DNA of 64,000 nt, taken from positions 47,848,440 to 47,912,439 of the forward strand of contig OX393550.1 in the NCBI GenBank assembly GCA_947650365.1, in the 5' to 3' direction. The position numbers and the translations under genes were made by a program. This DNA is from Chamaelirium japonicum. Taxonomy: Eukaryota > Streptophyta > Magnoliopsida > Liliales > Melanthiaceae. The notes beneath the pieces were generated by a model. That model did no database searches. It was not told where the DNA came from and saw nothing but the letters and a program-made list of their open reading frames with translations. Positions 5,321 through 64,000 of the stretch are shown here, piece after piece. Numbering within the stretch: position 1 is the first letter of the stretch; each line of letters opens with the position of its first letter.

Positions 5321-6007
<687 letters not shown>

Positions 6008-6076
<69 letters not shown>
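6008..6076. repeat. (TA)n microsatellite between hairpin elements
   Basis: About 69 bp of TA repeats directly join hairpin element II to hairpin element III with no other sequence between. Confidence 0.95.

Positions 6077-6079
<3 letters not shown>

Positions 6080-6478: not shown

Positions 6479-6506
<28 letters not shown>
6479..6506. repeat. (TA)n microsatellite, right end of the hairpin chain
   Basis: About 28 bp of TA repeats close the chain of three hairpin elements. Confidence 0.9.
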
Positions 6507-8768: not shown

Positions 8769-8883
8769 GTAGCCCTAAATACTTTCTCGTAGAGTAGCTT
8801 TTCCATAATCAGTTCTGTAGTTATGCTCTAGTAGATCACATAGCTAGGATAAACACATTTATAACTACTTATTATTGCCTTAG
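8769..8883 (+). other. Intron-like GT...AG segment between gag and pol (copy 1)
   Basis: A 115-bp AT-rich segment starts GTAGCC after AAG and ends TTGCCTTAG before GTG, with a T-rich 3' end. The same segment is at 29470-29584, 41926-42040 and 52334-52448. It is precisely absent at 16974/16975 and at the matching point near 60539. Splicing between gag and downstream genes is known in Ogre-type Ty3/gypsy elements. Here it is inferred from sequence only. Confidence 0.6.
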
Positions 8884-12226: not shown

Positions 12227-12279
12227 TTTCTGATTCTAACTAATTTTCGAGGACGAAAATTTCTTTAAGGTGTGTAGGT

Positions 12280-16101: not shown

Positions 16102-16240
16102 GCTGGTATCAGAGCAGCTGACACCGTGGTTTCCTAACAACTAGCTAATAGCAACCGAGGAGAACTTAGCTCCGCACAGCTCAAAGTACTGAGGACTCTG
16201 TACTCAACTGTGCTCTGCATTGATTATAGGAAACTTAATG
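16102..16240. other. Patchwork joint after copy 1
   Basis: Short snippets of the same family lie side by side: a primer-site word, pieces such as 'gctccgcacagctcaaagta' from the integrase region, and a plus-sense RT snippet that turns into minus-sense RT at about 16240. There is no gene. It recurs unchanged at 59667-59805. Confidence 0.6.
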
Positions 16241-18289
16241 CAGAGCCGCTTTGAACCGTCCTTCTTCTGGGCAAACAAAACAGGGGCACCCCATGGAGAG
16301 ACACTAGGGCGAATATACCCGAGACTCCGCAATTCTTCTAGCTGAGTACTTAACTCACGTAGCTCCGCTGGTGCCATCCGATACGGGGCCACTGAGATCG
16401 GTGCTGTCCCCGGAACTAGCTTGATGCTGAACTCTACCTCTCGAATAGGAGGAAGGCCTGGGAGCTGGTCAGGAAATACATCAGGAAAGTCTCGAACGAT
16501 TGGAGAGCGCTCCAATGGATTCTCGCCCTCAATCTCATTGGCCAACTGTGCTAGGAGGCTAAGATAAGACCCTTGCCGGGGCGTCGGATATAAAATAGCC
16601 AGCTTAGCTCCCACAAAGAAGAACTCTGTATTGCCAGGTGGACGGAAGGTGATCTTCTTGGAGTAGCAGTCTAGTGAAGCATGGTATGCCGCCATCCAGT
16701 CCATCCCCAGTAAGACATCCAACCCTTCTAAGTCGAGGATAATCAAGTCGGCCACAAGTTCATTGCCTCCAATGGAAAGCACACATCTCTTACATACACG
16801 GTCCACATCAATGCTAGTCCCAAGTGGTGAGACGACCGATAGGACATAACCAAGGGGTTCCGACTGTAACCCCAAGGTAGCCATAAATTTAGGGACTATG
16901 TAAGAGTGCGTCGATCCAGTGTCGAACAAGACTCGTGCAAGGGTAGTGAACACAGGTACAACACCTTCAATGGCAGATCCAGAAGCTCCAGTATCCTGAC
17001 CAACGAGTGCATAAGTCCGACCGTGAGTATGTTGGCCACTACCACCCTGGCGGACTGGAGGTCTTTGCTGAAGTGGCTGTGGTTGAGAAGGACGGTAGGG
17101 CCGGGCACCCTGCTGATTCTGAGGTGCCCTCTGCTGAAGTGGTTGGGGATGGTAAGTCAATGCTGGACGAGGGTGATACGGCAGGAGAGGTAGGGCTGGT
17201 TGCTGCTGCTGTGAAGGACGCCGAGTGCAGTCACGCCTGACATGGCCATACGTGCCACATCTAAAGCACTTGGGACCCTGTGAAGCTGGGGGTCCCTGGG
17301 AGTGGTGCTGCTGTTGACGAAAAGGAGCCTCCTGAGACCTAAGCCTCTTGGAATGAAACTCGTGATCACTCCTTCCGTTGCCACCACTTCCTCGCTTCTC
17401 CTGAATCTTCTTGGCATCCTCTTGGCCTCGCTCTGCCACCAGAGCTCGATCCACCACCTCGCTGTAGATCTTCAGCCGCAGTACCTCGATCTTATTTTTT
17501 ATTCCAGGCCTCAAACCTTGCTCGAACCTCTTTGCCTTACGCTCTTCCGTAGCTACCAGGAATGGAGCATAGCGTGACAGCTCATCGAACTTGGCCTCAT
17601 ACTCGGCCACCGATAGTGTGCCTTGGTACAAGTCCAAGAACTTCTTCTCCATTTCATCTCGGACGCTCTCCGGAAAGTACTTTTCTCGGAAAACCTTCTC
17701 GAACTCCTCCCAGGTCATAGGTGCCTGGCCTTCTCCTCGGGACCTTTGGATCCGATCCCACCAAAAGTCTGCCTCTGCCTCCAGCTGGTAGGAGGCTAGA
17801 GTGACTCTTCTCTCACCTACTACTTCCAGGGCATCCAATGCCTTACCGACTTGCTTCAACCATCTGTCGGCCTCCACTGGGTTTGGATGACCCTTGAAGG
17901 TTGGCGGCTTCAGTACCTGAAAGTCCTTTAGGAGCTTCCCCATCCTATCTGCATCCATTCTCTGCTCATCCCGAGCGGCCTGCTGGGCCTGAGCCTGAGC
18001 CAAAGCAGCCTGGGCTGCTGCTGTCTGCTCCTGGGCAGCTGCTTGTTGCTGGGCTACCATTGCTTGTTGTTGTTGCATCATGACTTGCTGCTGCTGCATC
18101 ATTTCAGTCATGGTGCGGATCATTTCCATGGGGTCAGGGACAGCTGCTGCACTTGATGACCCAGGAGAGGAAGTTTGACCTCTAGTAACAGCCATCTGCA
18201 AAAATGCAGGCCTATAAGACAATTGTTCGAGATAAGAAGACTAACCTACAACTAAATCCCTTAGGATCCTATCCCTAAGCTCTGATACT
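16241..18289 (-). mobile_element. Tekay fragment: gag, protease and start of RT (intron-less type)
   Basis: Minus-strand fragment running from the leader/primer-site remnant (18289) through gag (ATG at 18195), zinc knuckle and protease to the beginning of RT. The 115-bp intron-like segment seen in copies 1, 2, 3 and 5 is absent here, and several residues differ, marking a separate subfamily. It lacks both LTRs and most of pol, so it is a broken fossil fragment. Confidence 0.85.
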
Positions 18290-18380
18290 AGAATAATAAG
18301 AGCAACGAGTGCATAAGTTCGACCGTGATGGTATCAGAAAACAGAGGAGAACTGGCGCATCTGTTTTAGATCCGCCATTG
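18290..18380. other. Patchwork joint between gag fragment and LTR fragment
   Basis: About 90 bp assembled from snippets, including 'caacgagtgcataagttcga' (gag, minus sense), a TGGTATCAGA primer-site word and LTR-like words. It recurs at 62355-62445. Confidence 0.55.
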
Positions 18381-29469: not shown

Positions 29470-29555
29470 CTAAGGCAATAATAAGTAGTTATAAATGTGT
29501 TTATCCTAGCTATGTGATCTACTAGAGCATAACTACAGAACTGATTATGGAAAAG

Positions 29556-30818
29556 CTACTCTACGAGAAAGTATTTAGGGCTACCTTCAATGGCAGATCC
29601 AGAAGCTCCAGTATCCTGACCAACGAGTGCATAAGTTCGACCGTGAGTCTGTTGGCCACTACCACCCTGGCGGACTGGAGGTCTTTGCTGAAGTGGCTGT
29701 GGTTGAGGAGGACGGTAGGGCCGGGCACCCTGCTGATTCTGAGGTGCCCTCTGCTGCAGTGGTTGGGGATGGTAAGTCAATGCTGGACGAGGGTGATACG
29801 GCAGGGGAGGTAGGGCTGGTTGCTGTTGCTGCTGTGAAGGACGCCGAGTGCAGTCACGCCTGACATGGCCATACGTGCCACATCTAAAGCACTTGGGACC
29901 CTGTGAAGCTGGGGGTCCCTGGGAGTGGTGCTGCTGTTGGCGAAAAGGAGCCTCCTGAGACCTAAGCCTCTTGGAATGAAACCCGTGATCACTCCTTCCG
30001 TTGCCACCACTTCCTCGCTTCTCCTGAATCTTCTTGGCATCCTCTTGGCCTCGCTCTGCCACCAGAGCTCGATCCACCACCTCGCTGTAGATCTTCAGCC
30101 GTAGTACCTCGATCTTATTTTTTATTCCAGGCCTCAAACCTTGCTCGAACCTCTTTGCCTTACGCTCTTCCGTAGCTACCAAGAATGGAGCATAGCGTGA
30201 CAGCTCATCGAACTTGGCCTCATACTCGGCCACAGATAGTGTGCCTTGGTACAAGTCCAAGAACTTCTTCTCCATTTCATCTCGGACGCTCTCCGGAAAG
30301 TACTTTTCTCGGAAAACCTTCTCAAACTCCTCCCAGGTCATAGGTGCCTGGCCTTCTCCTCGGGACCTTTGGATCCGATCCCACCAAAAGTCTGCCTCTG
30401 CCTCCAGCTGGTAGGAGGCTAGAGTGACTCTTCTCTCACCTACTACTTCCAGGGCATCCAATGCCTTGTCGACTTGCTTCAACCATCTATCGGCCTCCAC
30501 TGGGTTTGGATGACCCTTGAAGGTTGGCGGCTTCAGTACCTGAAAGTCCTTTAGGAGCTTCCCCATCCTATCTGCATCCATTCTCTGCTCATCCCGAGCG
30601 GCCTGCTGGGCCTGAGCCTGAGCCAAAGCAGCCTGGGCTGCTGCTGTTTGCTCCTGGGCAGCTGCCTGTTGCTGGGCTACCATTGTTTGTTGTTGTTGCA
30701 TCATGACTTGCTGTTGCTGCATCATTTCAGTCATGGTGCGAAACATTTCCATGGGGTCAGGGACAGCTGCAGCACTTGACGACCCAGGAGAGGAAGTTTG
30801 ACCTCTGGTAACAGCCAT
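29556..30818 (-). CDS. gag of copy 2
   Basis: Frame of 420 residues from the first eukaryotic ATG (30818). It has a Gln-rich N-terminus, a retrotransposon Gag capsid domain with the FWWDRIQRSRG and FREKYFP motifs, and a CCHC zinc knuckle. The last few codons lie within the intron-like segment. It forms the element's particle. It looks whole and matches the gag of copies 3 and 5 almost exactly. Confidence 0.85.
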   Translation of the reverse strand: MAVTRGQTSSPGSSSAAAVPDPMEMFRTMTEMMQQQQVMMQQQQTMVAQQQAAAQEQTAAAQAALAQAQAQQAARDEQRMDADRMGKLLKDFQVLKPPTFKGHPNPVEADRWLKQVDKALDALEVVGERRVTLASYQLEAEADFWWDRIQRSRGEGQAPMTWEEFEKVFREKYFPESVRDEMEKKFLDLYQGTLSVAEYEAKFDELSRYAPFLVATEERKAKRFEQGLRPGIKNKIEVLRLKIYSEVVDRALVAERGQEDAKKIQEKRGSGGNGRSDHGFHSKRLRSQEAPFRQQQHHSQGPPASQGPKCFRCGTYGHVRRDCTRRPSQQQQQPALPPLPYHPRPALTYHPQPLQQRAPQNQQGARPYRPPQPQPLQQRPPVRQGGSGQQTHGRTYALVGQDTGASGSAIEGSPKYFLVE

Positions 30819-30915
30819 CTGCAAAAATGCAGGCCTATAAGACACTTATTCGAGATAAGAAGACTAACCTACAACTAAATCCCTTAGGATCCTATCCCTA
30901 AGCTCTGATACCAGC

Positions 30916-38563: not shown

Positions 38564-41500
38564 TCAAACAACAAAGAGATCAGGGTACAATCGCAACATA
38601 TCGGACTCCACTTCCCAAGTGGCCTCGTCCTCACCTCGATGACTCCACAAAATCTTGACCATCTTGATGGTCTTGGTGCGAAGCACCCTATCTTCGGAAG
38701 CTAAAACACGGATCGGCCGCTCCTCAAAAGTGGCATCGGCATTTAGCTCCAAGTCTTGCCAATCTAGTACATGTGTCGGGTCTGGCATGTACCTCCGGAG
38801 CATCGACACGTGGAACACTGGGTGCACTGCTGAGAGTCGAGGTGGCAACGCCAGACGATACGCCACCTCTCCGACTCGATCTAGAATCTCGAACGGTCCC
38901 GTAAACCTCGGTGCTAGTTTTCCCTTCTTTCCGAACCGAAAGACACCACGCTTAGGGGAAACCCGCAGAAAGACATGGTCACCGACCTCAAACTCAAGGG
39001 GCCGTCTACGAATATCCGCATAACTCTTCTGTCTACTTTGAGCTGTGCGGAGCCTTTCTCTGATAACCTGTATCTTCTCTGTAGTCTCCTGCACTAAGTC
39101 TGGTCCCAGAAGACTACGCTCTCCAACCTCTGCCCAACAGATGGGGGATCGACAAGGCCTCCCATACAGAGCTTCATAGGGAGCCATGCCAATGCTCGCC
39201 TGATAGCTATTGTTATACGAGAACTCCACCAAGGGCAAGTGCTCATCCCAGCTACCTCCGAAGTCTATAGAACACGCCCGAAGCATGTCTTCTAATATCT
39301 GGATGGTCCGCTCTGATTGACCGTCTGTCTGGGGATGAAAGGCTGTGCTAAAGCTGAGCTGGGTCCCCAACGCAGTCTGCAAACTCTTCCAGAACCCTGA
39401 GACAAACCTGGGATCTCGATCAGAGATAATGGTCACTGGAATCCCATGCAATCTGACTATCTCTGCAATGTAGAGTCTGCTCAGCTCCGATAAAGAGGAA
39501 GTCGTTCGGACTGGAAGGAAGTGGGCAGACTTGGTCAGTCTATCCACAATCACCCATACTGAATCATGCTTGCTCCTGGTTAGAGGCAACCCCGAGACGA
39601 AGTCCATCGTGATGTGCTCCCACTTCCACTCTGCGACAGGAAGGGGATGAAGGGGTCCCGCAGGCTTCTGGTGTTCTGCCTTAACCTGCTGACAGGTCAG
39701 ACACTTGGCCACAAACTCAGCTACATCTCTCTTCATGCCATTCCACCAGAATTGGCTCTTCAAGTCTCGGTACATTTTGGTACTGCCAGGGTGTACCATG
39801 TATCGAGAGCGATGCGCCGCTGTTAGAACCTCCTCTCGAATCTCCAGGTTCTTCGGTAGACATAGCCTCCTCTTATACCTCAGTCCGCCATCAGAATCAA
39901 GCGACCAGTCCTCTACTGTCTCTCCCTTTATCAGTCGAGAACGCATCTCCTCCAACTCCTCATCATCTGCCTGGGAGGCTATCACTTGTTTGACCAACGT
40001 AGGCTGCACCTGCACACTGAATAATCGAGTACTAGCGGGATCCTCTCGCACCAACAGGTCATACCCTTCAACTGCTACAATAAAACTCTGTCTATCTGCA
40101 ATCAGTCGAGACATCTTGCTCTTGAACTTCCTGCTGAGCGCATCTGCCACTACATTAGCCTTCCCAGGGTGATAAAAGAAATTGTAGTTGAAGTCCTTCA
40201 AGACCTCAATCCACCTCCTCTGTCGAAGATTCAGGTCCTTCTGGGTACAGATATACCTCAGACTCTTATGATCACAATACATCTCAAAGTCTTCTCCATA
40301 CAGGTAGTGCCGCCAAATCTTGAGCACAAACACCACCGCTGCAAGCTCCAGATCATGGGTCGGGTAGTTCTGCTCATGAGGCTTCAACTGTCTTGATGCA
40401 TAGGCTACCACTTTTCCATCTTGCATCAACACACCTCCAAGTCCAGACTGAGACGCATCTGTATAGACCACGTATCCCTTCCCACCAATTGGCACTGTAA
40501 GAACAGGGGCAGTGGTGAGTCGTCGCTTCAGCTCCTGGAAGGACTGCTCGCAAGCATCCGACCACTCAAACTTCACCCCCTTCTTTGTTAACCGAGTCAG
40601 AGGCAATGCCAGTCTCGAGAAACCCTCTACGAACCTCCGGTAGTATCCCGCTAGACCCAGGAAACTCCGGATCTCAAAAACATTCCTCGGTGACTTCCAA
40701 CTCAGTACTGCCTCGATTTTTGCTGAGTCCACCGAGATGCCTCCTTCTGAAACCACATGCCCTAAGAACTTTACTTCTCTCATCCAAAACTCACACTTGC
40801 TGAGTTTGGCATAGAGCTGGTGATCTCGCAATGTCTGTAGGGCAATCCTCAGATGCTCTGCATGCTCCTCTTTTGACTTCGAGAAGATCAATACGTCATC
40901 AACGAAGACCACGATGAACCGATCAAGGTAAGGCCTGAAGACCCGATTCATCAAGTCCATAAAAGCTGCTGGAGCATTCGTTAGACCGAACGGCATCACT
41001 AGAAACTCGTAGTGTCCGTACCGCGTCCGAAATGCTGTCTTCTGGATGTCATCATCCTTCACTCTGAGCTGATGGTACCCAGTCCTCAAATCAATCTTAG
41101 AGAAGAACTGAGCACCCTTCAGCTGATCAAATAGATCCTCGATCCTCGGAAGAGGATATCGGTTCTTCACAGTAACTGCATTAAGTTTCCTATAATCAAT
41201 GCAGAGCCGCTTTGAACCGTCCTTCTTCTGGGCAAACAAAACAGGGGCACCCCATGGAGAGACACTGGGGCGAATATACCCGAGACTCCGCAATTCTTCT
41301 AGCTGAGTACTTAACTCCCGTAGCTCTGTTGGTGCCATCCGATACGGGGCCACTGAGATCGGTGCCGTTCCCGGAACTAGCTTGATGCTGAACTCTACCT
41401 CTCGAATAGGAGGAAGGCCTGGGAGCTGGTCAGGAAATACATCAGGAAAGTCTCGAACGATTGGAGAGCGCTCCAATGGATTCTCGCCCTCAATCTCATT

Positions 41501-41914
41501 GGCCAACTGTGCTAGGAGGCTAAGATAAGACCCTTGCCGGGGCGTCGGATATAAAATAGCCAGCTTAGCTCCCGCAAAGAAGAACTCCGTATTGCCAGGT
41601 GGACGGAAGGTGATCTTCTTGGAGTAGCAGTCTAGTGAAGCATGGTATGCCGCCATCCAGTCCATCCCCAGTAAGACATCCAACCCTTCTAAGTCGAGGA
41701 TAATCAAGTCGGCCACAAGTTCATTGCCTCCAATGGAAAGCACACATCTCTTACATACACGGTCCACATCAATGCTAGTCCCAAGTGGTGAGACGACCGA
41801 TAGAACATAACCAAGGGGTTCCGACTGTAACCCCAAGGTAGCCATAAATTTAGGGACTATGTAAGAGTGCGTCGATCCAGTGTCGAACAAGACTCGTGCA
41901 AGGGTAGTGAACAC
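38564..41914 (-). CDS. pol of copy 3: protease, RT, RNase H, integrase, chromodomain
   Basis: A frame of 1116 codons counted from a GTG. No ATG starts it, so pol is probably made as an extension of Gag. Approximate residues: protease DTGS at 11-14; RT with FVDD at 337-340; RNase H acidic residues D485, E523 and D548; HHCC finger H701, H708, C738, C741; integrase triad D771, D832, E868 with the D-60-D-35-E spacing; GPF motif 1006-1008; chromodomain about 1069-1115 ending [10 protein letters not shown]. The enzymes copy element RNA into DNA and insert it. The chromodomain targets heterochromatin in this lineage. All motifs are present and it looks whole. Confidence 0.92.
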
Positions 41915-41925
41915 AGGTACAACAC

Positions 41926-42040
41926 CTAAGGCAATAATAAGTAGTTATAAATGTGTTTATCCTAGCTATGTGATCTACTAGAGCATAACTACAGAACTGA
42001 TTATGGAAAAGCTACTCTACGAGAAAGTATTTAGGGCTAC
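41926..42040 (-). other. Intron-like GT...AG segment between gag and pol (copy 3)
   Basis: Same 115-bp segment as at 8769-8883, in the copy whose coding part looks whole. It begins GTAGCC and ends CCTTAG on the minus strand and overlaps the last codons and stop of gag. Splicing is inferred, not shown. Confidence 0.6.
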
Positions 42041-43274
42041 CTTCAATGGCAGATCCAGAAGCTCCAGTATCCTGACCAACGAGTGCATAAGTTCGACCGT
42101 GAGTCTGTTGGCCACTACCACCCTGGCGGACTGGAGGTCTTTGCTGAAGTGGCTGTGGTTGAGGAGGACGGTAGGGCCGGGCACCCTGCTGATTCTGAGG
42201 TGCCCTCTGCTGCAGTGGTTGGGGATGGTAAGTCAATGCTGGACGAGGGTGATACGGCAGGGGAGGTAGGGCTGGTTGCTGTTGCTGCTGTGAAGGACGC
42301 CGAGTGCAGTCACGCCTGACATGGCCATACGTGCCACATCTAAAGCACTTGGGACCCTGTGAAGCTGGGGGTCCCTGGGAGTGGTGCTGCTGTTGGCGAA
42401 AAGGAGCCTCCTGAGACCTAAGCCTCTTGGAATGAAACCCGTGATCACTCCTTCCGTTGCCACCACTTCCTCGCTTCTCCTGAATCTTCTTGGCATCCTC
42501 TTGGCCTCGCTCTGCCACCAGAGCTCGATCCACCACCTCGCTGTAGATCTTCAGCCGTAGTACCTCGATCTTATTTTTTATTCCAGGCCTCAAACCTTGC
42601 TCGAACCTCTTTGCCTTACGCTCTTCCGTAGCTACCAAGAATGGAGCATAGCGTGACAGCTCATCGAACTTGGCCTCATACTCGGCCACAGATAGTGTGC
42701 CTTGGTACAAGTCCAAGAACTTCTTCTCCATTTCATCTCGGACGCTCTCCGGAAAGTACTTTTCTCGGAAAACCTTCTCGAACTCCTCCCAGGTCATAGG
42801 TGCCTGGCCTTCTCCTCGGGACCTTTGGATCCGATCCCACCAAAAGTCTGCCTCTGCCTCCAGCTGGTAGGAGGCTAGAGTGACTCTTCTCTCACCTACT
42901 ACTTCCAGGGCATCCAATGCCTTGTCGACTTGCTTCAACCATCTATCGGCCTCCACTGGGTTTGGATGACCCTTGAAGGTTGGCGGCTTCAGTACCTGAA
43001 AGTCCTTTAGGAGCTTCCCCATCCTATCTGCATCCATTCTCTGCTCATCCCGAGCGGCCTGCTGGGCCTGAGCCTGAGCCAAAGCAGCCTGGGCTGCTGC
43101 TGTTTGCTCCTGGGCAGCTGCCTGTTGCTGGGCTACCATTGTTTGTTGTTGTTGCATCATGACTTGCTGTTGCTGCATCATTTCAGTCATGGTGCGAAAC
43201 ATTTCCATGGGGTCAGGGACAGCTGCAGCACTTGACGACCCAGGAGAGGAAGTTTGACCTCTGGTAACAGCCAT
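42012..43274 (-). CDS. gag of copy 3
   Basis: Frame of 420 residues starting at the ATG at 43274. Nine further open codons upstream begin with GTG and are unlikely to be used. A Gln/Ala-rich N-terminus (rows of QQQQ) is followed by the retrotransposon Gag domain (FWWDRIQRSRG, FREKYFP, FEQGLRPGIKNKI), the zinc knuckle CFRCGTYGHVRRDC and a Gln/Pro-rich tail. It builds the particle that packages element RNA. The leader between primer site and ATG is only about 80 bp. It looks whole. Confidence 0.9.
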   Translation of the reverse strand: MAVTRGQTSSPGSSSAAAVPDPMEMFRTMTEMMQQQQVMMQQQQTMVAQQQAAAQEQTAAAQAALAQAQAQQAARDEQRMDADRMGKLLKDFQVLKPPTFKGHPNPVEADRWLKQVDKALDALEVVGERRVTLASYQLEAEADFWWDRIQRSRGEGQAPMTWEEFEKVFREKYFPESVRDEMEKKFLDLYQGTLSVAEYEAKFDELSRYAPFLVATEERKAKRFEQGLRPGIKNKIEVLRLKIYSEVVDRALVAERGQEDAKKIQEKRGSGGNGRSDHGFHSKRLRSQEAPFRQQQHHSQGPPASQGPKCFRCGTYGHVRRDCTRRPSQQQQQPALPPLPYHPRPALTYHPQPLQQRAPQNQQGARPYRPPQPQPLQQRPPVRQGGSGQQTHGRTYALVGQDTGASGSAIEGSPKYFLVE

Positions 43275-43357
43275 CTGCAAAAATGCAGGCCTATAAGACA
43301 CTTATTCGAGATAAGAAGACTAACCTACAACTAAATCCCTTAGGATCCTATCCCTAA

Positions 43358-51000: not shown

Positions 51001-51099
51001 GTCAGCTGGTATCAGAGCCAGGTTAGGATCCTAAGGGATTTAGTTGTAGGTTAGTCTTCTTATCTCGAATAAGTGTCTTATAGGCCTGCATTTTTGCAG

Positions 51100-52362
51100 A
51101 TGGCTGTTACCAGAGGTCAAACTTCCTCTCCTGGGTCGTCAAGTGCTGCAGCTGTCCCTGACCCCATGGAAATGTTTCGCACCATGACTGAAATGATGCA
51201 GCAACAGCAAGTCATGATGCAACAACAACAAACAATGGTAGCCCAGCAACAGGCAGCTGCCCAGGAGCAAACAGCAGCAGCCCAGGCTGCTTTGGCTCAG
51301 GCTCAGGCCCAGCAGGCCGCTCGGGATGAGCAGAGAATGGATGCAGATAGGATGGGGAAGCTCCTAAAGGACTTTCAGGTACTGAAGCCGCCAACCTTCA
51401 AGGGTCATCCAAACCCAGTGGAGGCCGATAGATGGTTGAAGCAAGTCGACAAGGCATTGGATGCCCTGGAAGTAGTAGGTGAGAGAAGAGTCACTCTGGC
51501 CTCCTACCAGCTGGAGGCAGAGGCAGACTTTTGGTGGGATCGGATCCAGAGGTCCCGAGGAGAAGGCCAGGCACCTATGACATGGGAGGAGTTCGAGAAG
51601 GTTTTCCGAGAAAAGTACTTTCCGGAGAGCGTCCGAGATGAAATGGAGAAGAAGTTCTTGGACTTGTACCAAGGCACACTATCTGTGGCCGAGTATGAGG
51701 CCAAGTTCGATGAGCTGTCACGCTATGCTCCATTCTTGGTAGCTACGGAAGAGCGTAAGGCAAAGAGGTTCGAGCAAGGTTTGAGGCCTGGAATAAAAAA
51801 TAAGATCGAGGTACTACGGCTGAAGATCTACAGCGAGGTGGTGGATCGAGCTCTGGTGGCAGAGCGAGGCCAAGAGGATGCCAAGAAGATTCAGGAGAAG
51901 CGAGGAAGTGGTGGCAACGGAAGGAGTGATCACGGGTTTCATTCCAAGAGGCTTAGGTCTCAGGAGGCTCCTTTTCGCCAACAGCAGCACCACTCCCAGG
52001 GACCCCCAGCTTCACAGGGTCCCAAGTGCTTTAGATGTGGCACGTATGGCCATGTCAGGCGTGACTGCACTCGGCGTCCTTCACAGCAGCAACAGCAACC
52101 AGCCCTACCTCCCCTGCCGTATCACCCTCGTCCAGCATTGACTTACCATCCCCAACCACTGCAGCAGAGGGCACCTCAGAATCAGCAGGGTGCCCGGCCC
52201 TACCGTCCTCCTCAACCACAGCCACTTCAGCAAAGACCTCCAGTCCGCCAGGGTGGTAGTGGCCAACAGACTCACGGTCGAACTTATGCACTCGTTGGTC
52301 AGGATACTGGAGCTTCTGGATCTGCCATTGAAGGTAGCCCTAAATACTTTCTCGTAGAGTAG
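51100..52362 (+). CDS. gag of copy 5
   Basis: Frame of 420 residues from the ATG at 51100, with the same Gln-rich start, Gag domain and CCHC knuckle as copy 3. It looks whole. It overlaps the intron-like segment at its end. Confidence 0.85.
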   Translation: MAVTRGQTSSPGSSSAAAVPDPMEMFRTMTEMMQQQQVMMQQQQTMVAQQQAAAQEQTAAAQAALAQAQAQQAARDEQRMDADRMGKLLKDFQVLKPPTFKGHPNPVEADRWLKQVDKALDALEVVGERRVTLASYQLEAEADFWWDRIQRSRGEGQAPMTWEEFEKVFREKYFPESVRDEMEKKFLDLYQGTLSVAEYEAKFDELSRYAPFLVATEERKAKRFEQGLRPGIKNKIEVLRLKIYSEVVDRALVAERGQEDAKKIQEKRGSGGNGRSDHGFHSKRLRSQEAPFRQQQHHSQGPPASQGPKCFRCGTYGHVRRDCTRRPSQQQQQPALPPLPYHPRPALTYHPQPLQQRAPQNQQGARPYRPPQPQPLQQRPPVRQGGSGQQTHGRTYALVGQDTGASGSAIEGSPKYFLVE

Positions 52363-52448
52363 CTTTTCCATAATCAGTTCTGTAGTTATGCTCTAGTAGA
52401 TCACATAGCTAGGATAAACACATTTATAACTACTTATTATTGCCTTAG
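52334..52448 (+). other. Intron-like GT...AG segment between gag and pol (copy 5)
   Basis: Same 115-bp segment as in copies 1, 2 and 3, at the same place between the zinc-knuckle tail of gag and the protease. Confidence 0.6.
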
Positions 52449-55400
52449 GTGTTGTACCTGTGTTCACTACCCTTGCACGAGTCTTGTTCGACACTGGATC
52501 GACGCACTCTTACATAGTCCCTAAATTTATGGCTACCTTGGGGTTACAGTCGGAACCCCTTGGTTATGTTCTATCGGTCGTCTCACCACTTGGGACTAGC
52601 ATTGATGTGGACCGTGTATGTAAGAGATGTGTGCTTTCCATTGGAGGCAATGAACTTGTGGCCGACTTGATTATCCTCGACTTAGAAGGGTTGGATGTCT
52701 TACTGGGGATGGACTGGATGGCGGCATACCATGCTTCACTAGACTGCTACTCCAAGAAGATCACCTTCCGTCCACCTGGCAATACGGAGTTCTTCTTTGC
52801 GGGAGCTAAGCTGGCTATTTTATATCCGACGCCCCGGCAAGGGTCTTATCTTAGCCTCCTAGCACAGTTGGCCAATGAGATTGAGGGCGAGAATCCATTG
52901 GAGCGCTCTCCAATCGTTCGAGACTTTCCTGATGTATTTCCTGACCAGCTCCCAGGCCTTCCTCCTATTCGAGAGGTAGAGTTCAGCATCAAGCTAGTTC
53001 CGGGGACGGCACCGATCTCAGTGGCCCCGTATCGGATGGCACCAACAGAGCTACGGGAGTTAAGTACTCAGCTAGAAGAATTGCGGAGTCTCGGGTATAT
53101 TCGCCCCAGTGTCTCTCCATGGGGTGCCCCTGTTTTGTTTGCCCAGAAGAAGGACGGTTCAAAGCGGCTCTGCATTGATTATAGGAAACTTAATGCAGTT
53201 ACTGTGAAGAACCGATATCCTCTTCCGAGGATCGAGGATCTATTTGATCAGCTGAAGGGTGCTCAGTTCTTCTCTAAGATTGATTTGAGGACTGGGTACC
53301 ACCAGCTCAGAGTGAAGGATGATGATATCCAGAAGACAGCATTTCGGACGCGGTACGGGCACTACGAGTTTCTAGTGATGCCGTTCGGTCTAACGAATGC
53401 TCCAGCAGCTTTTATGGACTTGATGAATCGGGTCTTCAGGCCTTACCTTGACCGGTTCATCGTGGTCTTCGTTGATGACGTATTGATCTTCTCGAAGTCA
53501 AAAGAGGAGCATGCAGAGCATCTGAGGATTGCCCTACAGACATTGCGAGATCACCAGCTCTATGCCAAACTCAGCAAGTGTGAGTTTTGGATGAGAGAAG
53601 TAAAGTTCTTAGGGCATGTGGTTTCAGAAGGAGGCATCTCGGTGGACTCAGCAAAAATCGAGGCAGTACTGAGTTGGGAGTCACCGAGGAATGTTTTTGA
53701 GATCCGGAGTTTCCTGGGTCTAGCGGGATACTACCGGAGGTTCGTAGAGGGTTTCTCGAGACTGGCATTGCCTCTGACTCGGTTAACAAAGAAGGGGGTG
53801 AAGTTTGAGTGGTCGGATGCTTGCGAGCAGTCCTTCCAGGAGCTGAAGCGACGACTCACCACTGCCCCTGTTCTTACAGTGCCAATTGGTGGGAAGGGAT
53901 ACGTGGTCTATACAGATGCGTCTCAGTCTGGACTTGGAGGTGTGTTGATGCAAGATGGAAAAGTGGTAGCCTATGCATCAAGACAGTTGAAGCCTCATGA
54001 GCAGAACTACCCGACCCATGATCTGGAGCTTGCAGCGGTGGTGTTTGTGCTCAAGATTTGGCGGCACTACCTGTACGGAGAAGACTTTGAGATGTATTGT
54101 GATCATAAGAGTCTGAGGTATATATGTACCCAGAAGGACCTGAATCTCCGACAGAGGAGGTGGATTGAGGTTTTGAAGGACTTCAACTACAACTTCTTTT
54201 ATCACCCTGGGAAGGCTAATGTAGTGGCAGATGCGCTCAGCAGGAAGTTCAAGAGCAAGATGTCTCGACTGATTGCAGATAGACAGAGTTTTATTGTAGC
54301 AGTTGAAGGGTATGACCTGTTGGTGCGAGAGGATCCCGCTAGTACTCGATTATTCAGTGTGCGGGTGCAGCCTACGTTGGTCAAACAAGTGATAGCCTCC
54401 CAGGCAGATGATGAGGAGTTGGAGGAGATGCGTTCTCGACTGATAAAGGGAGATACAGTAGAGGACTGGTCGCTTGATTCTGATGGCGGACTGAGGTATA
54501 AGAGGAGGCTATGTCTACCGAAGAACCTGGAGATTCGAGAGGAGGTTCTAACAGCGGCGCATCGCTCTCGATACATGGTACACCCTGGCAGTACCAAAAT
54601 GTACCGAGACTTGAAGAGCCAATTCTGGTGGAATGGCATGAAGAGAGATGTAGCTGAGTTTGTGGCCAAGTGTCTGACCTGTCAGCAGGTTAAGGCAGAA
54701 CACCAGAAGCCTGCGGGACCCCTTCATCCCCTTCCTGTCGCAGAGTGGAAGTGGGAGCACATCACGATGGACTTCGTCTCGGGGTTGCCTCTAACCAGGA
54801 GCAAGCATGATTCAGTATGGGTGATTGTGGATAGACTGACCAAGTCTGCCCACTTCCTTCCAGTCCGAACGACTTCCTCTTTATCGGAGCTGAGCAGACT
54901 CTACATTGCAGAGATAGTCAGATTGCATGGGATTCCAGTGACCATTATCTCTGATCGAGATCCCAGGTTTGTCTCAGGGTTCTGGAAGAGTTTGCAGACT
55001 GCGTTGGGGACCCAGCTCAGCTTTAGCACAGCCTTTCATCCCCAGACAGACGGTCAATCAGAGCGGACCATCCAGATATTAGAAGACATGCTTCGGGCGT
55101 GTTCTATAGACTTCGGAGGTAGCTGGGATGAGCACTTGCCCTTGGTGGAGTTCTCGTATAACAATAGCTATCAGGCGAGCATTGGCATGGCTCCCTATGA
55201 AGCTCTGTATGGGAGGCCTTGTCGATCCCCCATCACCCCTGGGTTTGACTGGTTTACCCTTGTAGTCGGATCCGGGGCGTGTCAGCTGGTATCAGAGAAA
55301 GGCTCCGCACAGCTCAAAGTAGACAGAAGAGTTATGCGGATATTCGTAGACGGCCCCTTGAGTTTGAGGTCGGTGACCATGTCTTTCTGCGGGTTTCCCC

Positions 55401-55791
55401 TAAGCGTGGTGTCTTTCGGTTCGGAAAGAAGGGAAAACTAGCACCGAGGTTTACGGGACCGTTCGAGATTCTAGATCGAGTCGGAGAGGTGGCGTATCGT
55501 CTGGCGTTGCCACCTCGACTCTCAGCAGTGCACCCAGTGTTCCACGTGTCGATGCTCCGGAGGTACATGCCAGACCCGACACATGTACTAGATTGGCAAG
55601 ACTTGGAGCTAAATGCCGATGCCACTTTTGAGGAGCGGCCGATCCGTGTTTTAGCTTCCGAAGATAGGGTGCTTCGCACCAAGACCATCAAGATGGTCAA
55701 GATTTTGTGGAGTCATCGAGGTGAGGACGAGGCCACTTGGGAAGTGGAGTCCGATATGTTGCGATTGTACCCTGATCTCTTTGTTGTTTGA
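52449..55791 (+). pseudogene. pol region of copy 5, broken
   Basis: Protease to chromodomain in the usual order, with the internal rearrangement shared with copies 1 and 2. About one break. Fossil. Confidence 0.85.
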
Positions 55792-55844
55792 TTTCTGATT
55801 CTAACTAATTTTCGAGGACGAAAATTTCTTTAAGGTGTGTAGGT

Positions 55845-58800
55845 TGTAACACTTGTGGTGTTAAATTTGGGAATAATAAAAGTTCACCTTGGGTATTTTC
55901 GTCATTCTCAGTCAGACTTTTTCTTTGGGCTTTTTCTGGAAGAATAAGTCGTAAACCCATGAAATATTTTACGTTCACTTTTGCTATGGCTTCGAACAGG
56001 TCGCAATGGCGCATCCCGTGCAGTAATCGGGTGTATGCGCAGCTAGTTTCGGCAGTTCGGTAGTTAAACCCTAGAATATCTATAAATTAACTGACATTTA
56101 ATATTGTTTGATTTACAACGGAAGTTCGGGTAATCGGATCGCAGCAAGGCTGGATACGTTGGGTGGGGATCTGAGAGACCTTTTCAACGAGCCTGAGCTG
56201 GGGTCGATCCGACACCTGGGTGATGAGTTATTATTATTTTAAATTTTAGATTATTTTCTTCTTTTTGGGAGATCTAAAAGTCAGAAAAATATATACCAAG
56301 TGCCAACGTGTTTACGTCGACGAGACCTTTCCAACGAACCCTTTCGGGCCCTATTCTGACCTCCGGTTTGTGAGTTAGGGCCAATTATTCTTTTTAGCCG
56401 GTAGGTAAATGAATCGCACCCGGGTTCCTACCGAGCTCACTCCAGGGCGCGGGACCGAGCCCGACCAACCCTAGGACCTGACTTCTAACCTACTAGCTGG
56501 CTTTAGGGCTCATAGTTATCCCTCCCCAAGGTTTTAAATGTTAAAATTCGGATGGAGAGGATCGAGCAAGAATTGGAGTAATAAGCTCAAAGTCTTCCGT
56601 TCCTTTATTTATTCCTCTTTATTTGGAATTAAGAAGTTAACGAGCCGATCTCTAAACTCTCTTTAATTATCACCATAACAACTCTCTTTAATTACCACCA
56701 TAACAATCTTTATGAAGAACCGACCTAAAGAGAGAAAGAGAATGGCCAGCCGAGAGAGAGAACGGCTGAACCGAGAGAGAAAGAACGGCAAATTAAGAGA
56801 GGGAGAAGGAAGGTAATAATTCTTATATTTAGAGAGAGAGAGAAAGAGAAAGAGAAAGGGAGAGAGAGAGCAGAGAGATCGAGGGAGAGGACTAGAGAGA
56901 GAGGAGCAACCCAGTCGCCCTCTGAGCTCCGCCCCCGACTTCGGTGAGCTACGCAGGTCAGCCATCTCCTTTCCTCCTCTCCTCCTTTGTGCCCAACACC
57001 TGACCTCCATCTCCTACCTTAGCCGCGGCCCACTCGGGTGAACGCCACCGCGACCCCATCTCCGGTCCTCGTCGGGAGGACCAAACCCATCTCCGGTCCT
57101 CGTCGGGTGAACGCCACCGCGACCCCATCTCCGGCTCGACCGGCGATCGCCGGAGCAAAACCAAACCCAAACCCAAAACCCGCGGACTCCCTCCGGCCAT
57201 AGCCTTCCCGGGCTTCGATGGAGCACCGGCTGCCTCCTCCCGTGTCTCCTCCATGGGGATGATGCGGGGAAGACCGTCCGGGCACCGCCGGCGCCACCCC
57301 AAGCCACCGGAGCCGAGCACCCCGCGGCCATGCATGGCTTCTCTTCCTCTTCCACGAGTTGGGTGGGGATCCCATAATGGTCATTAACGGACTCTAACAA
57401 ATCCGACGGTGTCGGGGTGTCTGGGAGACCACAAACCCATGTCCGGGCGGCACGAAGTGGTCGAGAAAAGGGTGCCGAGGTGATGGGTTCACTGTGAACC
57501 CATTCCTCTGTTTTCTTTTGTTGAAGAAGAAGAGGACAAGGGTGTCATTTCTTCAATTGTTATTAAACCATTAATAACTCAATCCTGAATCCAGACCCGA
57601 CCCGACTGCATAGTAACCCAACCCGCCTTAAGTGCACAGCAAACCCGACTTGATAACCCAGATCCAACCCAAAATGTAGACCCAACTCGACCTTCAGACC
57701 GGACCCAACAGTGAACCGGTCTGGTTCACCCGAACCAGACCCGTAAACCATCTAGAATTGGTTTAGCCGCCATTTCTTCGTCCGATCTCGGAATCGAACG
57801 AAACCAGCGGCATTACGACCGGCTCGGAAAATCCTATCTGTTGAATATAGTTAGGTACAGTAACTATACTGTGTAGTGTCCCATTTTATCCATGAGCCCG
57901 ATCTAGTCAGTACACCGTGGTTTGACCGCCAATTCTCCGTTCGATCTCGGAATTGGACGAAACCAGTGGCATCGTGCTCAGATCATCGATGCCGATGTAT
58001 TGAACCTAGTTTGGGACCCTAGAGACCCCTTTACCCTTTTGAACCGATCGTAGACCGGTTTCCACCGGTTTGACCCTAAAACCTCCGACAGAAGTCGGAT
58101 TTGAGCGAGACCGGATCCCATGGGTCCCTCATCCCTAAACCAAGCTTTTTAGAACCCTACTTTAAGTAATTTATAACAACTTATACATTTTAAACCATAA
58201 TGGTCAGTTTCTCTTTCAACGGTACACCGGACCGATAGGCGTGAGGAGCGTGAACTACCGAGCTATTCTCCAGGTGAACATGATTAATTCTATTCTAGTT
58301 AGAGTAGATTGTAGTTGTATCTGTAATATAATTAATAAAACCATTTGTGGCATAATATGTCCAATGCATGCAGGCGGGAAACCGGTACTGCATGTGGGAG
58401 GTGGGCATACTATCCCTTGCCTCTGAATAGTCATGCATGTAATATTTTGATAGCTGTAACGGTGATTGACTCAACCTAGATTCACACTAGGATGCATGCA
58501 AACAAGTAGATACTTGTACTGATTATTTATTAATATTCTGTTGAATGACTGTGTTTGGTGACCATGGGTCGCATGGTGCAGTCCAGTTGCTATTGAGCAA
58601 TGAAGACTGGTGGTCTCGGTGGAGAGACCGGTGGTCTCAATGGAGAGACTGGTGATTGTACTTCCTCAGTTGAGGTTCTCTTCCCAGAGGGAAGACTCAC
58701 TACTCACGGGCATGGGTAGGGGACCCGAGTGCACAGGATGGGAGGTGAACCACCGCCTGTGCGTAATCCGAATCAAGTAGGTAGGGTCACAGGGTTGGGC

Positions 58801-59666
58801 AGGCGGTAAAGCCCCTAGTGGCCTAGTAGTCCACCCCTGGGTAATGACCCCGAAAAGCAAGGTGGGCGGGAGTGCCCCGTGGTGAAAGACCAAGCCCCCT
58901 TATGGCCATATGGGTATTTCTGGCTCTCCAAGGACACTTGGACCCAGGTTTCTGTTGGCAGACTCAGTTAGAAAACTGCCGGTTCACTTTAGGAGTAGGT
59001 AGAACTAACCTTTGGTAATTAGTTGCATACCTTTGATCTTGATGATTACTTGTCGTATATGTACTAGTTGTAGTTGTAATATAGTAGAATTGTCATGTGT
59101 AGCTAGTTCATTTCATTTACTTGCAATGTATGTATATATGCGTTGCCGCCCTCGTAGACTTCTAGAAGGGTGGGATATGACTATGGTTTACCCTAGTTAG
59201 TTTAGGGTTAACTGTTCACTGAGTTTACCTAGTAAACTCACCCGTTGTTGCACACTCTTTTCAGGTACCGTAGATCCTTCTCTGACGCTTCCTAGAGGAT
59301 CTTAAATAGCTATCGAGAGAGGACACTAGAGCTATTAGCTAGTTTTTATTATTTCCAGTTGGTTATGTAATAATTATGGAACTATGTTTTAGATGCTCTG
59401 AATAATGCCAGAATCAGTAATGTTTCCTCTGGTAAGCTTCTTCTCAAAGCTTCATGCCCGGTAGGCCTTTTCTCAAGGCCAAGCTATTGGTAGGCTTCTC
59501 CTCAAAGCCATCCCCTATCAACTAGTAAATAGTTAATGATAAATTAGTAATGAATAACTAAATAATAAAATCAACCTCGCAACCTTATAACATTGACTTA
59601 CCCTTATAACCCCATCACCCCTGGGTTTGACTGGTTTACCCTTGTAGTCGGATCCGGGGCGTGTCA
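55845..59666 (+). repeat. Tekay LTR, type A (3' LTR of copy 5)
   Basis: Same as 12280-16101 at a constant offset of 43,565 bp, with only a handful of substitutions visible (for example near 55909, 56409 and 56443). Confidence 0.85.
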
Positions 59667-59805
59667 GCTGGTATCAGAGCAGCTGACACCGTGGTTTCCT
59701 AACAACTAGCTAATAGCAACCGAGGAGAACTTAGCTCCGCACAGCTCAAAGTACTGAGGACTCTGTACTCAACTGTGCTCTGCATTGATTATAGGAAACT
59801 TAATG
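59667..59805. other. Patchwork joint after copy 5
   Basis: Same sequence as 16102-16240, including the plus-to-minus RT turnaround. Confidence 0.6.
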
Positions 59806-62354
59806 CAGAGCCGCTTTGAACCGTCCTTCTTCTGGGCAAACAAAACAGGGGCACCCCATGGAGAGACACTAGGGCGAATATACCCGAGACTCCGCAATTC
59901 TTCTAGCTGAGTACTTAACTCACGTAGCTCCGCTGGTGCCATCCGATACGGGGCCACTGAGATCGGTGCTGTCCCCGGAACTAGCTTGATGCTGAACTCT
60001 ACCTCTCGAATAGGAGGAAGGCCTGGGAGCTGGTCAGGAAATACATCAGGAAAGTCTCGAACGATTGGAGAGCGCTCCAATGGATTCTCGCCCTCAATCT
60101 CATTGGCCAACTGTGCTAGGAGGCTAAGATAAGACCCTTGCCGGGGCGTCGGATATAAAATAGCCAGCTTAGCTCCCACAAAGAAGAACTCTGTATTGCC
60201 AGGTGGACGGAAGGTGATCTTCTTGGAGTAGCAGTCTAGTGAAGCATGGTATGCCGCCATCCAGTCCATCCCCAGTAAGACATCCAACCCTTCTAAGTCG
60301 AGGATAATCAAGTCGGCCACAAGTTCATTGCCTCCAATGGAAAGCACACATCTCTTACATACACGGTCCACATCAATGCTAGTCCCAAGTGGTGAGACGA
60401 CCGATAGGACATAACCAAGGGGTTCCGACTGTAACCCCAAGGTAGCCATAAATTTAGGGACTATGTAAGAGTGCGTCGATCCAGTGTCGAACAAGACTCG
60501 TGCAAGGGTAGTGAACACAGGTACAACACCTTCAATGGCAGATCCAGAAGCTCCAGTATCCTGACCAACGAGTGCATAAGTCCGACCGTGAGTATGTTGG
60601 CCACTACCACCCTGGCGGACTGGAGGTCTTTGCTGAAGTGGCTGTGGTTGAGAAGGACGGTAGGGCCGGGCACCCTGCTGATTCTGAGGTGCCCTCTGCT
60701 GAAGTGGTTGGGGATGGTAAGTCAATGCTGGACGAGGGTGATACGGCAGGAGAGGTAGGGCTGGTTGCTGCTGCTGTGAAGGACGCCGAGTGCAGTCACG
60801 CCTGACATGGCCATACGTGCCACATCTAAAGCACTTGGGACCCTGTGAAGCTGGGGGTCCCTGGGAGTGGTGCTGCTGTTGACGAAAAGGAGCCTCCTGA
60901 GACCTAAGCCTCTTGGAATGAAACTCGTGATCACTCCTTCCGTTGCCACCACTTCCTCGCTTCTCCTGAATCTTCTTGGCATCCTCTTGGCCTCGCTCTG
61001 CCACCAGAGCTCGATCCACCACCTCGCTGTAGATCTTCAGCCGCAGTACCTCGATCTTATTTTTTATTCCAGGCCTCAAACCTTGCTCGAACCTCTTTGC
61101 CTTACGCTCTTCCGTAGCTACCAGGAATGGAGCATAGCGTGACAGCTCATCGAACTTGGCCTCATACTCGGCCACCGATAGTGTGCCTTGGTACAAGTCC
61201 AAGAACTTCTTCTCCATTTCATCTCGGACGCTCTCCGGAAAGTACTTTTCTCGGAAAACCTTCTCGAACTCCTCCCAGGTCATAGGTGCCTGGCCTTCTC
61301 CTCGGGACCTTTGGATCCGATCCCACCAAAAGTCTGCCTCTGCCTCCAGCTGGTAGGAGGCTAGAGTGACTCTTCTCTCACCTACTACTTCCAGGGCATC
61401 CAATGCCTTACCGACTTGCTTCAACCATCTGTCGGCCTCCACTGGGTTTGGATGACCCTTGAAGGTTGGCGGCTTCAGTACCTGAAAGTCCTTTAGGAGC
61501 TTCCCCATCCTATCTNNNNNNNNNNNNNNNNNNNNNNNNNNNNNNNNNNNNNNNNNNNNNNNNNNNNNNNNNNNNNNNNNNNNNNNNNNNNNNNNNNNNN
61601 NNNNNNNNNNNNNNNNNNNNNNNNNNNNNNNNNNNNNNNNNNNNNNNNNNNNNNNNNNNNNNNNNNNNNNNNNNNNNNNNNNNNNNNNNNNNNNNNNNNN
61701 NNNNNNNNNNNNNNNNNNNNNNNNNNNNNNNNNNNNNNNNNNNNNNNNNNNNNNNNNNNNNNNNNNNNNNNNNNNNNNNNNNNNNNNNNNNNNNNNNNNN
61801 NNNNNNNNNNNNNNNNNNNNNNNNNNNNNNNNNNNNNNNNNNNNNNNNNNNNNNNNNNNNNNNNNNNNNNNNNNNNNNNNNNNNNNNNNNNNNNNNNNNN
61901 NNNNNNNNNNNNNNNNNNNNNNNNNNNNNNNNNNNNNNNNNNNNNNNNNNNNNNNNNNNNNNNNNNNNNNNNNNNNNNNNNNNNNNNNNNNNNNNNNNNN
62001 NNNNNNNNNNNNNNNGCATCCATTCTCTGCTCATCCCGAGCGGCCTGCTGGGCCTGAGCCTGAGCCAAAGCAGCCTGGGCTGCTGCTGTCTGCTCCTGGG
62101 CAGCTGCTTGTTGCTGGGCTACCATTGCTTGTTGTTGTTGCATCATGACTTGCTGCTGCTGCATCATTTCAGTCATGGTGCGGATCATTTCCATGGGGTC
62201 AGGGACAGCTGCTGCACTTGATGACCCAGGAGAGGAAGTTTGACCTCTAGTAACAGCCATCTGCAAAAATGCAGGCCTATAAGACAATTGTTCGAGATAA
62301 GAAGACTAACCTACAACTAAATCCCTTAGGATCCTATCCCTAAGCTCTGATACT
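59806..62354 (-). mobile_element. Second copy of the intron-less gag-protease fragment, split by a gap
   Basis: Same as 16241-18289 with 500 N inserted at 61516-62015. It shows the gag start, Gag domain, zinc knuckle, protease and first part of RT on the minus strand, and lacks the 115-bp intron-like segment. Broken fossil fragment. Confidence 0.85.
61516..62015. other. Assembly gap of exactly 500 N
   Basis: The bases on either side (...catcctatct and gcatccattc...) are contiguous in the twin copy at 17950/17951, so compared with that twin no sequence is missing. A round 500 suggests a scaffolding placeholder, not a measured gap. Confidence 0.95.
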
Positions 62355-62445
62355 AGAATAATAAGAGCAACGAGTGCATAAGTTCGACCGTGATGGTATC
62401 AGAAAACAGAGGAGAACTGGCGCATCTGTTTTAGATCCGCCATTG
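62355..62445. other. Second copy of the patchwork joint
   Basis: Same as 18290-18380, joining the gag fragment to the type C LTR fragment. Confidence 0.55.
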
Positions 62446-64000
62446 CCGAGTCCAGTTCAAGGCCCGGAACAGAGCCGACTTTACCTAGGACCGGTTTCCT
62501 AACATTGTAGCTAGATTTAGACCTCTTAGATCTCTCTCCCCGATATTTAAAACTTTAACATCGGATGGGGAGTAAAGGGAATAATTATGAGAATAACCGG
62601 ATCTTTTCTTCATTCATTCCCTACTGTTTATTAGGAATTAACAACCATTACAACATGTAGCCTTAACAATCTGATCCCCCAACCCTCTTGACCACCATAA
62701 CAGCCCTTTCCCTCTTTATGAAGAATCTAGAGAGAGAAAGAGAACGGTAGAACCAAGAGAGAGAGAGAGTTATATAGAGAGAGAGTTATATAGAGAGAGA
62801 AGAGAGAGAGAGAGATAAAAGAGAAGGGGAAGGAGTTGCAGCGGCCCGACGATTCACGCAGCGGCGAGCCACTCCGAAACCGAACCCGAACCCATCAGGT
62901 AATCCTCCCCTCCTCCTCCTTTCTCTTCTTTGGTGTAACCACCGGCGACCCATCGGTACTCCGCGACCCAAACCCATCTGCACGGTCCTCTCCTACCTTA
63001 GCCGCGGCCCACTCGGGTGAACGCCACCGCGACCTCACCTCCGGTCCTCGTCGGGAGGACCAAACCCCAGGCTCGACCGGCGATCGCCGGAGCAAAACCA
63101 AACCCAAACCCAAAACCCGCGGACCCCTCCGGCCAAAGCCTTCTCGGGCTTCGATGGAACGCATGTTACCTTATCCCGCGTCTTCCCCGCGGGGGAGACC
63201 GGCCGGGCACCGCCGGCGCCACCCCAAGCCACCGGAGCCGAGCACCCCGCGGCCATGCATGGCTTCTCTTCCTCTTCCACGAGTTGGGTGGGGATCCCCT
63301 AATGGTCACTAGCGGACTCTAACGAATCTGACGGTGTCGGGTTGTCTGGGAGACCACAATCATATGCCCGGGCGGTACGGAGTGGTCGAGAAATGGTTGC
63401 CGTGGTAATGGGTTCACAGTGAACCCATTCCTCTGTTTTCTTCTGTTGAAGAAGAAGAGGACATGGGTGGCATTTCTTCAATTGCTATTAAACCAAACTC
63501 AACCCATTAACAACTCAGCCCCCTGACCCGACCCGACTGCATAGCAACCCGACCACCTTAAGTGCACAGCAGACCCGATCCGAACAGCAGACCAGACCCG
63601 ACCCGCAGACCCAACCTGATAACACAGATCCGGCCCAACCAACAGTGAACCGATCTGGTTCACCTGAACCAGACCCGTAAACCGTCTAAATTTGGTTCAG
63701 CCGCCATTTCTTCGTCCGATCTCGGAATCGAACGAAACCAACGGCATTACGACCGACTCGGAAAATCCTACCTGTTGGCCATAGCTAGGTACAGTAATTA
63801 TACTGTGTAGTATCCCATTTTATCCATGAACCCGATCTAGTCGGTGCGCCGTGGTTTGATAGCCAATTCTCCGTCCGATCTCGGAATTAGACGAAACCAG
63901 TGGCATCGTGCTCAGATCATCGATGCCGATGTATTGAACCTAGTTTGGGACCCTAGTGACCCCTTTACCCTATTGAACCGATTGTAGACTAGTTTTCACC
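62446..64000 (+). repeat. Tekay LTR fragment, type C, running off the window
   Basis: Same as 18381 to about 19935. The duplication continues beyond the right edge of the window. Confidence 0.8.

Follow-up and report, generated by a model that had tools for sequence, protein, structure and literature searches.

Retrotransposons require Gag in large and Pol in small amounts, and for Ty3/gypsy elements with a single open reading frame (ORF) it is often unclear how this is achieved. Among the elements to which ours can be compared, CRR is a chromovirus, and Bianca is a Ty1/copia element and thus of another superfamily than the one described here. We analyzed a 64,000-nucleotide stretch of the Chamaelirium japonicum genome (GenBank assembly GCA_947650365.1, contig OX393550.1, positions 47,848,440 to 47,912,439 of the forward strand), called the window below, in which a 115-bp segment parts gag from pol in copies of a Tekay-type Ty3/gypsy element. 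The segment is very probably a phase 1 GT-AG spliceosomal intron at the start of the protease region, whose retention or splicing would set the balance of Gag and Gag-Pol.

The statements on published systems given here follow excerpts of the cited papers. A single ORF is the rule in most element groups, Bianca and Ogre being two-ORF elements with average gaps of 172 and 274 bp, respectively; the gap in Ogre is a partly spliced intron (PMC6317226). Splicing between the Ogre ORFs is also described in PMC3735527, and a Medicago Ogre family has an intron in pol (PMC2533021). BARE1, a Ty1/copia element, has a 104-nt U-rich intron near the end of gag that is spliced to make Gag only, and DNA copies of its spliced RNA were not amplifiable from genomic DNA (PMC3735527). 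The original prediction, made from the window alone, had cited the spliced intron between the coding regions of Ogre and the use of splicing by BARE1 to make a gag message, and both agree with these excerpts (PMC6317226, PMC3735527). As for Tekay, one passage describes a family as gag-pro-rt-rh-in and does not mention an intron there (PMC2533021), and the excerpt of a sunflower isoform study has no Tekay member in its expressed set (PMC7730604). Titles and abstract openings on Tekay or chromovirus splicing described no intron in a Tekay element; most subscription journals lay outside this coverage.

As in Ogre, a Ty3/gypsy element of the Tat lineage, a putative intron parts two polyprotein ORFs here; that of Ogre is spliced from part of the transcripts, giving the full polyprotein (PMC6317226). 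The Ogre intron lies between protease and reverse transcriptase among Tat-lineage domains, whereas the one described here is 112 to 115 bp long, lies before the protease catalytic motif, and belongs to a Tekay-type element. Judged from sequence, the frames fit Ogre-type coding, in which unspliced RNA gives the first ORF and spliced RNA the full polyprotein. BARE1 resembles our element, as we read it, in that a short intron near the end of gag governs Gag versus Pol, but its polarity is opposite, since splicing yields Gag alone, and a DNA copy of spliced RNA seems to exist in our case. In the Ty1/copia element EVADE, the splicing that gives shGAG sets Gag against Gag-Pol, as proposed for our element, but it works in the reverse sense, is linked to premature cleavage and polyadenylation, and is found in another superfamily (PMC8892269, PMC12786077). 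CRR, a Ty3/gypsy element like ours, has spliced transcripts of the general kind predicted here, but its splicing removes rt and creates two ORFs (PMC3735527). Bianca is similar in the short region that separates its ORFs, for which the excerpts mention no splicing (PMC6317226).

The segment between gag and pol in the window

We found the segment in four copies of the element, with GT...AG ends and an AG before the GT, as the original prediction had reported. All four are 100% identical, and read in the element's sense each is AAG/GTAGCC...TTGCCTTAG/GTG, where slashes mark the segment boundaries.

41926..42040, minus strand: candidate intron of copy C3 (L006), the subject of this report; donor GT at 42040-42039, acceptor AG at 41927-41926, branch-like TTTATAAC at 41944-41951
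29470..29584, minus strand: candidate intron of copy C2 (L007), identical sequence
8769..8883, plus strand: candidate intron of copy C1 (L008), identical sequence; gag truncated at 8391
52334..52448, plus strand: candidate intron of copy C4 (L005), identical sequence; inside a near-duplicate of the C1 block

Positions 8391-17950 match 51956-61515 at 99.97% identity, and 17951-19935 match 62016-64000 at 100%; between these two parts, the second block has a gap of exactly 500 N, and the first runs on without a break. The two blocks, of about 11.5 kb (8391-19935 and 51956-64000), are probably an assembly duplication. Since the C1 and C4 segments lie inside them, the four copies represent three distinct ones at most.

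As expected of a plant spliceosomal intron, the segment is AT/U-rich and its flanking exons are richer in GC. The segment has 33.9% GC and 36.5% T, compared with 51% GC and 28% T in the 100-nt flanks (33% T in the 50-nt flanks), and 0.4% of 115-nt intervals in the internal region of C3 are equally AT-rich, counting those over the segment itself. With splice matrices, the donor ranked 12th of 162 GTs and the acceptor 6th of 263 AGs. AGGT stands on both sides, which leaves the boundaries ambiguous by those four bases. Therefore, the GT...AG ends alone are a weak argument, and the genome-wide comparison carries the case. We saw no inverted repeat at the segment ends, which the original prediction had asked to be checked as the mark of a small insertion with its own terminal repeats. 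A small transposon with inverted terminal repeats was thus ruled out by eye, the ends showing AGGT microhomology alone. As the candidate branch point, CTTAT/CTGAT at -16 was considered first and then given up in favor of TTATAAC, a motif conserved from one subfamily to the other.

The gag frame continues into the segment for 9 codons, the split codon included, and reaches a stop after ...GSAIEGSPKYFLVE. The pol frame opens near the segment's 3' end, and its first Met lies downstream of the protease DTG motif. This agrees with the earlier claims that gag ends inside the segment and that pol has no start ATG.

42012..43301, minus strand: gag frame of C3, 429 aa stop to stop; Retrotrans_gag and zf-CCHC; ends inside the candidate intron
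38564..41944, minus strand: pol frame of C3, 1126 aa; RVP_2, RVT_1, RNase H, integrase, SH3_Tf2-1 and a weak Chromo; opens inside the candidate intron
29556..30845, minus strand: gag frame of C2
26477..29488, minus strand: pol frame of C2, 1003 aa; departs from the C3 sequence after about codon 935
51073..52362, plus strand: gag frame of C4
52430..55441, plus strand: pol frame of C4, 1003 aa
8865..11876, plus strand: pol frame of C1, 1003 aa
34714..38513, minus strand: 3' long terminal repeat (LTR) of C3, 3800 bp

Pfam domains place gag and a zinc knuckle in the first frame and protease, reverse transcriptase, RNase H, integrase, and SH3_Tf2-1 in the second, which is the Ty3/gypsy order. A C-terminal Chromo match stands at the expected place and is weak, falling short of the cut-off (E 0.0034; 17.7 bits against 25.1). 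An NCBIfam scan gave nothing further. The LTR of about 3.8 kb has TG...CA ends and is followed by the primer-binding site TGGTATCAGAGC, which we take to be of the initiator Met tRNA type; together with 5-bp target site duplications in 6 of 10 copies, this matches what is expected of Tekay. The label Tekay-type rests on these features, the domain order, and the subthreshold chromodomain match. C2 and C3 differ at 14 sites before position 2805, 11 of them third codon positions, and no conclusion rests on these differences.

Conservation across the genome

We surveyed the 1.52-Gb genome with the segment itself and scored 40 of 60 candidates, so that the number of copies is at least 40. These copies (subfamily A, which includes the window's four) match at 95-100% identity and lie on many contigs; the manner in which they were found biases the set towards conservation. 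The acceptor TTGCCTTAG is present in all 40, and the donor is AAGGTAGCC in 39 and AAGGTTGCC in one. The length is 115 nt in 39 copies and 114 nt in L042. Every one of the 40 meets an early stop if the segment is retained. Within 1.5 kb on each side, a gag of at least 400 aa and a pol of at least 495 aa are both open in 18 of the 40, and the rest are broken or truncated.

Both LTR regions were examined in ten copies. Six have perfect 5-bp target duplications, each different (L031 GATCT, L034 GTTTC, L037 ACGAC, L014 TATCC, L011 CTACC, and L023 AAGAT), and their LTR pairs differ at 0/3749 to 121/3611 sites (0 to 3.4%). In L039, another of the ten, the LTRs differ at 191/3433 sites and no target duplication was found. 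The 5' end of L013 was not resolved, and L035 and L019 were dropped with an LTR not found or partial. At a substitution rate of 1.3e-8 per site per year, the LTR ages run from about zero to over two million years. The separate target duplications and the LTR differences indicate that carriers of the segment transposed repeatedly, some very recently, and rule out a one-off insertion.

A protein search across the junction, with 150 rows scored of 1832 candidates, set these copies beside more distant relatives. At 66-73% identity, each of the 48 rows crosses the junction without a break, and in 18 the frame is open over at least 1450 aa. At 84-100% identity, 100 of 102 rows begin only at residue 19-28, and the remaining two, which run through, are a pair in the window. 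Open frames of at least 1120 aa occur in 27 of the 100 junction-broken rows. We examined junction DNA for 55 of the 100, namely 37 from the 40-copy set and 18 further ones. Twenty small junction stretches comprised 2 run-through families that lack the segment (L086 and L087, rows of 1522 and 1540 aa), 9 members of a second subfamily (B), 2 of the window type (L083 and L085), and 7 of a class that keeps the acceptor and has no gag directly upstream.

All nine subfamily B members examined have the putative intron at the same place, with the donor AAG/GTAAGCC, which is better than that of the window type, and the acceptor CTTAG. The B segment is 113 nt long in six members and 112 nt in three; these lengths alter the unspliced frame and leave the exon frames as they are. 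Pol frames of 1130-1135 aa are open in two 112-nt and two 113-nt members. A one-base change in length is thus harmless, which favors removal at the RNA level and argues against frameshifting. Between the window type and B (four of the nine compared), the exons are 79-80% and 84-85% identical, and the segment body is 57-59% identical with 8-9 gap positions. The islands kept are the donor, TAGTTT, CTAGGAT, TTATAAC at 18-20 nt from the 3' end, and CTTAG; eight of the nine B copies have the branch-like TTATAAC, at a distance of 18 nt from the 3' end. Across relatives, the GT-AG ends with flanking AG/G are conserved with few exceptions; besides the decayed donors described below, the base following the acceptor is A in L040 and L078. 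That the segment is common to subfamilies genome-wide goes beyond what the window alone could reveal.

The comparison places the gain of the putative intron in the ancestor of this subfamily group, with the more distant relatives in the same genome running through the junction. RVP_2 spans the empty junction of the window's intronless copy (residues 308-436, junction at 329), which marks the interrupted state as derived. A recent gain between two young subfamilies was considered and dropped, because the intronless copy nests in the intron clade and subfamily B has the intron. In predicted unspliced RNA, the gag frame stops at codon 9 to 17 of the segment (the split codon being number 1), and only Gag could be made from it.

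We built a tree of the 40 intron copies and the intronless one, with divergent stretches masked, and assigned changes by parsimony; internal branches represent lineages that kept transposing. At codon positions 1/2/3, we counted 46/24/150 internal changes in gag and 52/24/127 in pol, compared with 150/86/178 and 149/110/171 on terminal branches (Fisher p 1.5e-9 for gag and 1e-7 for pol). The third-position excess on internal branches indicates that Pol has been in use in lineages whose gag and pol come into one frame only by removal of the segment. By this measure, gag and pol are both under purifying selection in the putatively intron-bearing lineages. Between A and two B copies, the ratio of nonsynonymous to synonymous divergence (dN/dS) is 0.11 for gag (dS 0.99-1.02) and 0.07-0.08 for pol (dS 0.69-0.71). 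The segment body has a distance of about 0.6 by the Jukes-Cantor formula, slightly below dS. At the rate used above, a dS of 0.7-1.0 corresponds, loosely, to about 27-39 million years. Taken together, the conserved donor, acceptor, and branch-like motif in a diverging body, the frame-shifting lengths, and the selection on both ORFs support the original prediction of a spliceosomal intron.

The intronless fragment and alternative explanations

The original prediction had placed two sites without the segment at 16974/16975 and near 60539. Both sites are real, but the positions were ten bases off.

16237..18291, minus strand: intronless fragment IL1; ORF 16204-18240, 678 aa, gag and 5' pol in one frame; empty site 16964/16965
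59802..61515, minus strand: twin of IL1; empty site 60529/60530; cut by the 500-N gap; probably the same copy duplicated

Because the block around the twin nearly repeats the first one and contains the gap of exactly 500 N, we counted one intronless copy. No further junction was found in 50 kb of DNA near the window. IL1 reads from gag directly into protease in a single frame, as the other copies would with the segment taken out. Its gag equals that of the intron-bearing L031, L034, and L035 at 1229/1229 sites, and in the tree it joins the L031 set (support 0.92) within a larger clade whose support is 1.0. Beginning about 400 nt downstream of the junction, it departs from L031 at five sites, each time with an allele that the intron-bearing copies of the window have. 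The gag identity and the nested position indicate an exact, recent loss within the intron clade, best read as the outcome expected of reverse-transcribed spliced RNA. The origin suggested for the fragment in the original prediction is thus supported, although a deletion between the AGGT repeats would give the same product. IL1 starts at the primer-binding site and adjoins about 90 bp of patchwork, filler-like DNA with no adjoining LTR, which suggests a captured partial complementary DNA (cDNA). The patchwork itself (18292-18380) contains a 26-bp piece of gag and resembles end-joining filler DNA.

It is possible, if rather unlikely, that the intron is real and that IL1 arose by DNA deletion between the AGGT repeats or through gene conversion, with an older element that lacks the intron as donor. 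Four-base repeats do flank the segment, and IL1 lies amid rearranged DNA. However, IL1 has L031-type alleles on both sides of the junction (e.g., reference positions 1436 and 1967; eight rows compared), no other intronless row at 84% identity or above stood among those scored, and the start at the primer-binding site is that of an incomplete cDNA.

Far less probable is an unspliced insertion that disables pol, its carriers being mobilized in trans by intronless partners. Although the segment parts gag from pol by frame and stops and many copies have decayed, pol is under purifying selection on internal branches of the carriers and between subfamilies, the splice sites are conserved in a body that diverges, and the window pair are the sole intronless rows among the 102 scored at 84-100% identity, in a search that scored 150 of 1832 candidates. 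Recoding in translation (by frameshifting, by readthrough, or by a hop of the ribosome between GGT codons) as the source of Pol is less credible still: GGT codons at both segment ends in both subfamilies would let a hop give the same protein, but the gag stop lies upstream of the pol opening (42012 versus 41944) and no single frameshift can bridge them, the frame relation differs among segments of 115, 113, and 112 nt, the splice-site consensus, branch-like motif, and AT-richness would be unneeded, and an exact loss at the DNA level fits RNA splicing.

Several observations weigh against splicing as we read it. The window-subfamily donor is weak past +3 (GTAGCC), and decayed donors occur, with AT for GT in L085 and TT in L076 and L077. 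Of the 100 broken rows, 45 are known as protein rows alone and could be broken otherwise, and 7 of the 55 examined as DNA belong to the class without gag upstream. The sole intronless copy is a rearranged fragment, and its flanking repeats permit exact loss by deletion. Recombination among copies is visible (IL1 and L003) and blurs the tree; it weakens single branches more than the contrast of internal and terminal branches. Finally, the 115 sites of the segment changed 14 times on internal and 25 times on terminal branches, more slowly than third codon positions, which may reflect selection or the way in which the copies were found.

The best reading remains an Ogre-like switch in a Tekay-type element, in which unspliced RNA would give Gag and the genome and spliced RNA would give Gag-Pol. 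The host spliceosome would remove the segment from part of the transcripts; because the window-type donor is weak after +3, we infer that splicing is partial. The anatomy suggests that retention versus splicing would fix the ratio of Gag to Gag-Pol. Unspliced RNA would normally be copied into new insertions, which would thus inherit the intron, and occasional reverse transcription of spliced RNA would leave an exact intronless copy such as that in the window.

An element copied through RNA would lose its intron whenever spliced RNA was copied, which raises the question of how an intron survives RNA replication. We lean towards the view that this one has persisted for a time that may amount to tens of millions of years, with the unspliced fate (packaging and Gag) held apart from the spliced fate (Gag-Pol), and that the window fragment is a rare leak. 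The fragment makes the leak rate measurable, and the intron gain with run-through relatives in one genome offers a natural before-and-after comparison.

Relatives without gag directly upstream and other observations

Seven relatives (L076, L077, L079-L082, and L084) keep the acceptor and pol, with two rows open over 1125-1126 aa, and have no gag directly upstream. Four of them that we looked at further (L076, L079, L080, and L084) have about 0.9 kb of noncoding DNA upstream. An LTR end and primer-binding site lie about 0.7 kb before the junction in L079, L080, and L084, and L076 has a motif like a primer-binding site; L076 and L084 retain a gag remnant of 32-34 nt. Such relatives are possibly gag-less elements that rely on the Gag of other elements.

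No useful relative came from viral contigs scanned with the junction protein, an 18-base donor pattern, and the integrase region. The genome-contig scan gave a 3.8-kb contig titled Streptomyces, which we regarded as a contaminant and set aside.

In the window, two 3800-bp LTRs that are 100% identical meet exactly at 34713/34714 between C2 and C3 (30914-38513). At 16104-16128 and 59669-59693, a 3' LTR is followed directly by a primer-binding site motif, beyond which the sequence is a different one; the arrangement resembles that of a tandem or recombined element. Positions 4946-6506 hold dense inverted and direct repeats of 66-95% identity.
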